Of a DNA stretch of 64,000 bases, positions 48,273-50,657 are shown piece by piece. Source of the DNA: Haloglomus litoreum (lineage in GTDB: Archaea > Halobacteriota > Halobacteria > Halobacteriales > Haloarculaceae). The position numbers were made by a program, and so were the translations under genes. The notes under the pieces are model-generated. The model searched no databases. It was given only the letters and a program-made list of their open reading frames with translations, and was not told the origin of the DNA. Each line of letters begins with the position of its first letter. Position 1 is the stretch's first letter. The stretch covers positions 992,001-1,056,000 of the forward strand of contig NZ_CP119988.1 of assembly GCF_029338515.1 (NCBI RefSeq). The letters run 5' to 3'.

Positions 48273-49346
48273 TCAGATGCTGCCGGTCACGTCGCCGTAC
48301 GAGCCTTCCTCGTACTCGTCGTCGGGGACGACGACGACGCTGCCGAAGCCCTCGCGGTCCTGGAGCATCTCGTGGGCGCGAGCCGTCTCGCTCATCGGCA
48401 GGACCTCACGGACGTACGGCGTGAACGTGCCGTCCCACACCAGCGAGAGGACGTCGTCCATCTCACCCGGCGTGCCCATCGTCGAGCCCATGATGTCCAG
48501 CTGCTTCCAGAAGATCTGCGTGATGTTGGTCTCGGGCTTCGGGCCGGTGGTCGCGCCGCAGGTGACCAGGCGGGCGCCCTGCGTGCAGGCCTTGATGGAG
48601 TCCTGCCAGGTGGCCGCGCCGATGTGGTCGACCACCACGTCGGCCCCGCGGCCGTCCGTGTCGCCCTTGATGGCGCTCACGAAGTCCTCCTCGTCGTAGT
48701 TGATGAGGTGGTCGGCGCCACACTCCGCGGCCAGTTCGAGCTTGGCCTCGCTGGAGGCCGTGGCCCACACCTCGGCGCCGGCGTTGGCGGCGATCTGGAC
48801 CGCGGCGTGGCCCACGCCGCCGGAGGCGCCGTGGACGAGCACCTTCTCGCCCTGCTTGACCTCGGCGCGCGTGGTGAGCATCCGCCACGCGGTCTGGAAC
48901 ACGAGCGGCGCGGCCGCCGCGCGGACGAAGCTCACGTCGTCGGGGATGGGGACGAGGTTGTCCTCGGCGAGCGCGCTGTACTCGGAGTGGACGCCGGTCG
49001 TGTGCTCGCCGATGAGCATGAAGTTCTCACAGAGCGAGCGGTCGCCGTCCCGGCAGAACTCGCAGGTCCCGCAGGAGGTGGCCGGCGCGACGGCGACGCG
49101 GTCGCCCGCCTCGAACCGGGTCACGTCCTCGCCGACCTCCGTGACGACGCCCGCGCCGTCGCTGCCGGGGATGTGCGGGAACTCGCCCGGGCTGGGCATC
49201 CCGCGCCGGGTCCAGACGTCGAGGTGGTTCAGTCCGCCGGCCTTCATCTCGACCAGGCACTCGTCGCGGCCGACCTCGGGGTCCGGCAGCTCGTCGTACT
49301 GGATGACGTCGGTGTCGCCGTGCTCCTCGTAATAGACGGCCTTCAT
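48273..49346 (-). CDS. zinc-binding alcohol dehydrogenase/quinone reductase family
   Basis: A 357-residue medium-chain dehydrogenase. The structural zinc cluster CGTCEFCRDGDRSLCE is complete, the substrate domain starts MKAVYYEEHGDTDVIQYDEL, and the Rossmann domain has VLVHGASGGVGHAAVQIAA followed by WATASSEAKLELAAECGADH. The sequence LNHLDVWTRRGMP replaces the typical catalytic zinc ligand of true alcohol dehydrogenases, so quinone or enone reductase activity is possible. NADP or NAD preference was not assigned. Start ATG 49346, divergent from the next gene. Confidence 0.88.
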   Translation of the reverse strand: MKAVYYEEHGDTDVIQYDELPDPEVGRDECLVEMKAGGLNHLDVWTRRGMPSPGEFPHIPGSDGAGVVTEVGEDVTRFEAGDRVAVAPATSCGTCEFCRDGDRSLCENFMLIGEHTTGVHSEYSALAEDNLVPIPDDVSFVRAAAAPLVFQTAWRMLTTRAEVKQGEKVLVHGASGGVGHAAVQIAANAGAEVWATASSEAKLELAAECGADHLINYDEEDFVSAIKGDTDGRGADVVVDHIGAATWQDSIKACTQGARLVTCGATTGPKPETNITQIFWKQLDIMGSTMGTPGEMDDVLSLVWDGTFTPYVREVLPMSETARAHEMLQDREGFGSVVVVPDDEYEEGSYGDVTGSI

Positions 49347-49997: not shown

Positions 49998-50657
49998 ATG
50001 AGCGACGACGGACACAACCACGACCACGCACACGAGGAGGAGCCCGACCCGCACGACCACGACCACTCGCACGACCACGACCACGGTGGCCACTCGCACC
50101 ACGCCCACGACGTCGAGACCATCAGCGCGGGGGTGGTCACCGTCTCCTCGACGCGGAGCGTGAAGGACGACCCCGCCGGCGACGCCATCGTGAAGGCGTT
50201 CGAGGACGGCGGCCACGAGGTCGAGGTCCGCGAACTCGTCAACGACGACCTGGACGGCATCCAGTCCACCGTCGACCGGCTGGTCGCGCGTGACGACGTG
50301 AACACGGTCGTCACCACCGGTGGAACGGGCGTGACGCCGGACGACGTGACCATCGACGCCGTGCGACCGGTCCTGCGGACCGAGCTGCCGGGCTTCGGCG
50401 AGCTGTTCCGGCGGCTCTCATACGAGGAGGTCGGCACCCGTGTCGTCGGTACGCGTGCGCTCGCGGGCATCGCGCGCGGTGTCCCCGTCTTCTGTCTCCC
50501 CGGGAGCGAGAACGCGGCCCGGCTCGGGGCCGAGGAGATCATCGTCCCGGAGGCACCCCACCTCGCGGGCCTGGCCGACCGCGGCGCGGACCGGGAGACG
50601 GCCGCGGCTGCCGACGCGGACGCGGAGGGGTCCGGCCCCGAGTCCGACGGGGAGTGA
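49998..50657 (+). CDS. moaB: molybdenum cofactor biosynthesis protein MoaB/Mog family with His-rich N terminus
   Basis: Molybdopterin adenylyltransferase-type protein of 219 residues. The MogA/MoaB domain begins ETISAGVVTVSSTRSVKDDP and has the nucleotide-binding TTGGTGVTPDDVTIDAV and LPGSENAARLGAEEII. Ahead of it, residues 6-37 hold 14 histidines interspersed with Asp/Glu, a likely metal-binding tail of a kind normally seen on metal chaperones. A Glu/Ala-rich tail ends the protein. Start ATG 49998. Partner molybdenum-cofactor genes are not adjacent. Confidence 0.88.
   Translation: MSDDGHNHDHAHEEEPDPHDHDHSHDHDHGGHSHHAHDVETISAGVVTVSSTRSVKDDPAGDAIVKAFEDGGHEVEVRELVNDDLDGIQSTVDRLVARDDVNTVVTTGGTGVTPDDVTIDAVRPVLRTELPGFGELFRRLSYEEVGTRVVGTRALAGIARGVPVFCLPGSENAARLGAEEIIVPEAPHLAGLADRGADRETAAAADADAEGSGPESDGE

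Follow-up and report, generated by a model that had tools for sequence, protein, structure and literature searches.

A histidine-rich N-terminal arm conserved on haloarchaeal MoaB proteins, a candidate metal-binding module

The window MoaB and the closest described systems

The closest described relatives of the protein analyzed here are MoaB, MogA and Cnx1G (PF00994, TIGR00177; structures 4lhb, 1y5e and 1uuy). The MoaB protein of P. furiosus has a short N-terminus, the first 9-11 residues of which are disordered in the crystal, and its Asp56 coordinates Mg2+ in a superposition-based model, as described in the structural report (PMC3896444). Histidine-rich stretches are known from other proteins, and in UreG such a stretch occurs where UreE is absent and is thought to replace it, according to Haas et al. 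(PMC2770081). In haloarchaea, PitA and Cdc48d are described as His-rich in two papers on purification from H. volcanii, and PitA binds the nickel column (PMC11169840, PMC8576121).

The window, that is, the whole stretch of 64,000 nucleotides of the Haloglomus litoreum genome that was analyzed, contains the moaB gene whose features are collected in Table 1. The preliminary description of this DNA had reported 14 histidines interspersed with acidic residues ahead of a MoaB/Mog (molybdopterin adenylyltransferase) domain, and both points were borne out, the former by translation of the gene (His at positions 6, 8, 10, 12, 19, 21, 23, 25, 27, 29, 32, 34, 35 and 37, interspersed with Asp and Glu) and the latter by profile scores above the cut-offs of PF00994 (E 1.5e-28, 99.7 bits against 26.6) and TIGR00177 (104.5 bits against a curated 85.35). 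The score for the TIGR02667 moaB_proteo equivalog, 148.2 bits, was below the required 222.4.

Table 1. Features of the moaB region (positions in the window)
Feature	Position	Strand	Evidence
moaB, 219 aa: His-rich arm, MoaB/Mog domain and acidic C-terminal tail	49998..50657, stop included	+	translation, domain search
His/Asp-rich N-terminal arm, residues 1-38, with 14 His in 6-37	49998..50111	+	translation
Anchor HHAHD, residues 34-38	50097..50111	+	alignment of 126 long-armed relatives
MoaB/Mog fold, PF00994, residues 46-187	50133..50558	+	domain search; Foldseek best hits 3iwt, 1y5e
Asp83, aligned with P. furiosus MoaB Asp56	50244..50246	+	alignment
GGTG motif, residues 108-111	50319..50330	+	alignment
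Zinc-type alcohol dehydrogenase-like gene (PF08240, PF00107), divergent from moaB	48276..49346	-	domain search

The window MoaB shares with the MoaB/MogA/Cnx1G proteins the fold (Foldseek E 1e-16 to 1e-12), the GGTG motif, the Mg-site Asp and the PGS motif, whereas in the comparison with P. furiosus MoaB the long His/Asp-rich N-terminal arm is found in the window protein alone. In an AlphaFold2 model built from a 37-row alignment (mean pLDDT 83), the core was mostly confident and the arm was a coil with block pLDDT of 53-68; the best PDB matches of this model were MoaB structures, and the MPT-bound Cnx1G structure 1uuy appeared at rank 33. The arm contains four matches to the metallochaperone-like HxHxHxH-type stretch, and it resembles in this respect the variable-length, HxHxHxH-rich stretches of COG0523/CobW, UreG/UreE and HypB, one of which, on COG0523, lies in trans to the RR lineage of MoaB proteins treated below. 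In contrast to those proteins, MoaB is not a G3E GTPase, and the stretch here is carried by a cofactor adenylyltransferase. PitA and Cdc48d also have a natural His-rich stretch like the MoaB arm, but on unrelated folds. The probability of finding at least 14 His in 32 residues was 3e-17 to 1e-13 (binomial, His frequency 1.6-3 %, uncorrected for looking everywhere).

A description of the arm on MoaB was not found in one open-access library searched for MoaB/Mo, His-rich proteins, COG0523 and haloarchaea, with subscription papers mostly outside this coverage. The tail is not mentioned in the accessible portions of a paper on a MoaC-MoaB fusion (PMC11237513) and of a haloarchaeal metal review (PMC3600143); the terms molybd, MoaB and Mog do not occur in the main text of PMC2770081, nor does MoaB in that of PMC8576121 and PMC11169840.

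The genome containing the window (4.7 Mb, one contig) gave three profile matches to PF00384, one to MoaC, five to PF00994 and one to the MoaB core, which is 92 % identical to that of another genome of the same genus (G411). The neighbours of moaB are the divergent alcohol dehydrogenase-like gene, a convergent RtcA-type gene and a 5-FTHF cyclo-ligase-type gene, and an operon logic at this locus was rejected because genes for Moco synthesis are absent among these three. The alcohol dehydrogenase-like divergent gene is a neighbour of main-group moaB not just in the window but also in 29 of the 58 named loci (L036-L093); the same gene adjoins moaB in 7 of the 10 opened loci of the lineage here called 'none', and in 0 of 13 opened RR loci.

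Distribution of the arm and MoaB lineages in Halobacteria

The MoaB core was present in 388 of the 391 sampled genomes of the class. The 245 loci examined for the sequence comparison were a non-random set made up of the 30 best matches, 59 matches of a second search, the loci of further searches and 100 chosen regions. After merging 10 rows whose first 120 core residues were identical and dropping a bacterial locus (L094), 194 distinct halobacterial cores and 40 archaeal outgroup cores from outside the class were left. Scoring of the arm covered the 30 residues preceding the core, and arms with 5 or more His but lacking the RR motif were counted as long. A main group with the arm accounted for 137 of the 194 halobacterial cores (126 long, 10 short and one frameshifted MAG copy), so that the tail, whose conservation among haloarchaeal MoaB proteins had been put forward for checking in the preliminary description, is widely present among the relatives. 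As judged from these sequences, haloarchaea have conserved the arm as a trait of the protein.

In the 126 long-armed proteins, the 30 residues before the core consisted of 34.6 % His, 25.0 % Asp, 11.6 % Gly and 6.8 % Glu, and the HHxHD anchor beside the fold is near-invariant in the alignment, with H at -6 in 121 proteins, H at -5 in 125, H at -3 in 107 and D at -2 in 120. The full length of the arm had a median of 49 and a range of 11-284 residues, values that are approximate since start codons were assigned heuristically, the upper ones possibly including upstream frame. The short-armed MoaBs carry an H-rich stub, e.g. MSHHHDHDI. In the outgroup, the N-terminus is typically short with an EHK- or EHL-like motif, and 38 of the 40 rows had 1-3 His in the 30-residue stretch scored, one had 4 and another had 6.

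Another motif at the N-terminus, MVDFQSR[DN]TRRG-like and searched as [MV][VI]DFQ, precedes the MoaB core in 23 of the 126 long-armed, 1 of the 10 short-armed, 6 of the 21 'none' and 0 of the 36 RR proteins. In the frameshifted moaB copy, from a Haloquadratum MAG (L057, 5960-6030), one extra base shifts the His-rich run out of the frame of the core, which may be a true mutation or an assembly error. The MoaB of Halolamina salifodinae (L051) has an additional long His-rich C-terminal tail, and a short one is present in L035.

In a FastTree of the MoaB core alone, the states main, RR, 'none' and outgroup required 3 changes, the minimum possible, with support values of 98 for RR (36 cores), 96 for 'none' (21 cores) and 86 for the outgroup; the RR label is based on a motif at the N-terminus, part of which falls on the first residues of the core, and is therefore not wholly independent of the tree. 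Both RR and 'none' seem to descend from the main group, a polarity that depends on the assumed position of the root. In RR, the stub before the core contained GHD in 36 of 36 and HGHD in 32 of 36 proteins, and in 'none' the 30 residues before the core had no His in 18 of 21 proteins and one in the other 3.

The residues D58, D83, G108-G111 (GGTG), D116, R138, S141 and S170 were unchanged in 137/137 main-group and 36/36 RR proteins. D83 was also present in 40 of 40 outgroup rows. The 'none' proteins had lost D83 in 21 of 21, S170 in 20 of 21 and R138 in 14 of 21 cases, and because the Mg-site Asp and other active-site residues are lost, 'none' is probably not an adenylyltransferase. A lack of molybdoenzymes had been predicted for genomes whose sole detected MoaB is of the 'none' type, and this held in G403 and G410, two genomes of one genus, which gave 0 matches to the one molybdoenzyme family searched (PF00384), while 6, 5, 1 and 3 matches were found in the comparison genomes G016, G117, G005 and G137. 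A degenerate MoaB paralog without the Mg-site Asp was seen in L127, L247, L258 and 18 other loci, belonging to many Natrialbaceae (f3) and to some genomes of the window's family, and its sequence suggests that it is possibly a pseudo-enzyme.

COG0523/CobW-type genes beside RR moaB

Among the matches listed, the RR gene was located at most 4 kb downstream of a COG0523-type gene on the same strand in at least 25 of 35 mapped loci, in comparison with 0 of 14 main-group loci from COG0523-bearing genomes (Fisher p 2.9e-6, relatedness ignored). In the remaining 10 of the 35, a COG0523 gene within 4 kb was not among the matches listed, and in the 36th RR locus (L083) it was absent from the 6 kb upstream. 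The 14 main-group loci came from 14 of the 16 genomes of the window's family holding a COG0523 gene; of the other two, G159 was left out and G408 had no MoaB match. When the flanks alone were inspected, a COG0523-type gene was directly upstream in 19 of 36 RR loci (13 of the 22 with more than 1200 nt of upstream sequence and 6 of the 14 with about 600 nt) and in 0 of the 158 non-RR loci, a set that included 113 with more than 1200 nt upstream.

In the 13 full-length GTPases neighbouring RR, the most His-rich segment of 40 residues had 6-17 His, and of six partial ones, with the locus end inside the gene, three had 9-11 His and three had 1-3. Three GTPases of L281 and L283 scored above the cut-offs of both PF02492 and PF07683, which assigns them to COG0523/CobW; for the zinc chaperone ZigA (NF038288), the RR-neighbour GTPases reached 433, 357 and 325 bits, under the cut-off of 600. 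Three RR genes are found on plasmids, in Halocatena salina, Halorubrum ezzemoulense and Halorientalis marina, each after two GTP-binding protein genes, the second of which overlaps the RR gene by 1-4 nt. These three loci also contain genes for NikR-type regulators and for transport systems, which in two of them are of the ECF cobalt/nickel type, and no annotated metal exporter was present in the three when opened. CbiL, of the cobalamin path, is annotated in two of the clusters, and a methyltransferase of the same type in the third.

A COG0523 match was found in 44 of 51 Natrialbaceae genomes, again among the matches listed. The seven without one were G204, G214, G239 and G266, which are all four sampled Natrialbaceae with a main-group MoaB, and G043, G071 and G151, without a match at 1e-25, of which G043 and G151 are RR by sequence. 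In most of the Natrialbaceae genomes read the armed copy was not found and no copy other than RR had its active site intact, as far as matches were fetched. The window's family had a COG0523 gene in 16 of 47 genomes, and the 14 of these whose MoaB was checked all have a main-group MoaB. When an RR-neighbour GTPase was used as query against the window genome, zero matches were obtained at 1e-25, and a trans chaperone of this kind in that genome was rejected; PF02492 gave three weak matches there (21.1-26.9 bits, barely over the cut-off of 20.7).

A proposed metal-binding role of the arm and alternative explanations

A His-rich module accompanies MoaB where the active site is intact; main-group proteins carry it in cis, and for RR it frequently lies in trans. 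The argument is of the same kind as that made for UreG and UreE in PMC2770081. We lean modestly toward the explanation that selection has kept the arm as a flexible transition-metal-binding module on a catalytically intact MoaB, serving as a metal buffer or chaperone. Its HHxHD end would be fixed beside the fold and the remainder would be a length-variable His/Asp run, and the arm would hold a divalent metal, most likely Zn, Ni or Co, at the enzyme making MPT-AMP. In RR the arm would be mostly lost, with an equivalent His-rich module often present on the neighbouring COG0523 GTPase, and in 'none', where the active site is decayed, the arm is gone. Metal binding itself, the identity of the metal, whether it is donated, stored or shielded, the direction of transfer and a physical partnership between MoaB and the GTPase are what we infer from this pattern.

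The link of the tail to metal handling made in the preliminary description receives independent support from the frequent location of arm-poor RR genes beside COG0523/CobW-type metallochaperone genes, and from the regulators and transport genes of the three plasmid loci. The copper that had also been considered there found no such support: neither sequence nor context evidence pointing to it as the specific metal was found, and the gene context suggests that Zn, Ni or Co fit better. Binding of molybdate by the arm was rejected by reasoning alone, His/Asp runs being suited to cations. Several observations speak against the buffer or chaperone role. The RR-neighbour GTPases may serve Co/Ni enzymes instead of MoaB, because the plasmid clusters carry CbiL or a methyltransferase of the same type; the cis and trans modules are not exclusive, since a COG0523 gene and a main-group MoaB occur in the same genomes; the short-armed members show that a long arm is dispensable; part of the RR loci have no listed COG0523 gene within 4 kb; and the proteins singled out as His-rich or Ni-binding in the H. 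volcanii purification papers are PitA and Cdc48d, with MoaB not among them (PMC11169840, PMC8576121).

If the arm binds metal, it could also do so as a shield, scavenging stray Cu, Zn, Cd or Ni and keeping the MPT dithiolene free before molybdenum insertion. Cu can replace Mo at the dithiolene, inhibiting E. coli molybdoenzymes, as stated in PMC10434068, and this capacity keeps the shield alive as an explanation, together with the position of the arm on an enzyme that handles the free dithiolene and its absence where the active site is decayed; nevertheless, the transport and chaperone genes beside RR, with no annotated exporter in the plasmid loci, suggest acquisition and favour supply over shielding, which leaves the shield unlikely. 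We regard as still less probable a metal-sparing swap, in which the armed MoaB would be ordinary and RR a metal-independent spare copy induced in metal starvation. Such a swap is likened to the zinc-independent enzyme copies near COG0523 genes in bacteria and agrees with the co-occurrence of armed and RR copies in G199, G306 and G037, where the RR copy is beside COG0523, but in most of the Natrialbaceae genomes read RR cannot be a spare, being the only intact-site copy.

Least probable of all, in our judgement, is that the arm has no metal function and is a low-complexity, soluble, acidic halophilic tail produced by expansion of CAC/GAC repeats. Acidic tails are common in Halobacteria, the 'none' lineage keeps its acidic residues (D 14.3 %, E 14.0 %) with almost no His, arm length is very variable, and the DNA is repeat-like, with a degenerate period-6/18 array detected by Tandem Repeats Finder at 50003-50085 (67-72 % matches). 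However, the HHxHD anchor is near-invariant, and in the 126 long-armed relatives the His count was independent of the G+C content of the locus (Spearman rho 0.006), whereas the CAT share of the His codons followed it (rho -0.42, p 1.3e-6). Moreover, the arm is missing from the second MoaB copy of several genomes that have two: the 30-residue segment ahead of the core had 0 His in the second copy as against 11, 8, 6 and 2 in the first copy of G016, G117, G402 and G268, and 1 His in the second (RR) copy as against 14, 11 and 11 in the first copy of G199, G306 and G037. Because of the indifference of the His count to G+C, the dependence of the CAT share on it and the armless second copies, repeat drift alone is insufficient to explain the arm, and pure drift was rejected.

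A copper-bearing MPT has reportedly been observed in plant Cnx1G, and since then the participation of metals besides Mo and W at the MPT-AMP stage has been a question. The armed, the chaperone-linked and the catalytically decayed MoaB lineages represent a class-wide natural experiment on it, and the question is testable in tractable haloarchaea. It is conceivable, although we hold it doubtful, that MPT adenylylation in haloarchaea is metal-assisted, a transition metal being brought to MoaB by the His arm or by a trans COG0523 chaperone and possibly residing transiently on the dithiolene. The clients of COG0523 metallochaperones are, to our knowledge, mostly unknown, and the neighbourhoods of RR suggest MoaB as a candidate client.

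At the DNA level, the HxHxHxH pattern occurred 44 times in the window genome and 37 times in a reversed control; the pattern alone is not rare, and what is rare is its use in plausible reading frames. Among the 30 of the 44 loci that were viewed, the plausible genes were moaB (4 matches), those for a NikR-type regulator, SBP56, an AAA protein, DUF5810 and DUF371 proteins, and the L122 frame, and three of the other 14 matches lie inside the DUF5810 run. Thus, further His-rich tails are present in this genome on the NikR-type regulator and on the SBP56, AAA, DUF371 and DUF5810 proteins (Pfam), at C1:290002, C1:331043, C1:965827, C1:3340781 and C1:3868587, and the AAA protein with the His-rich C-terminus is presumably Cdc48d-like.
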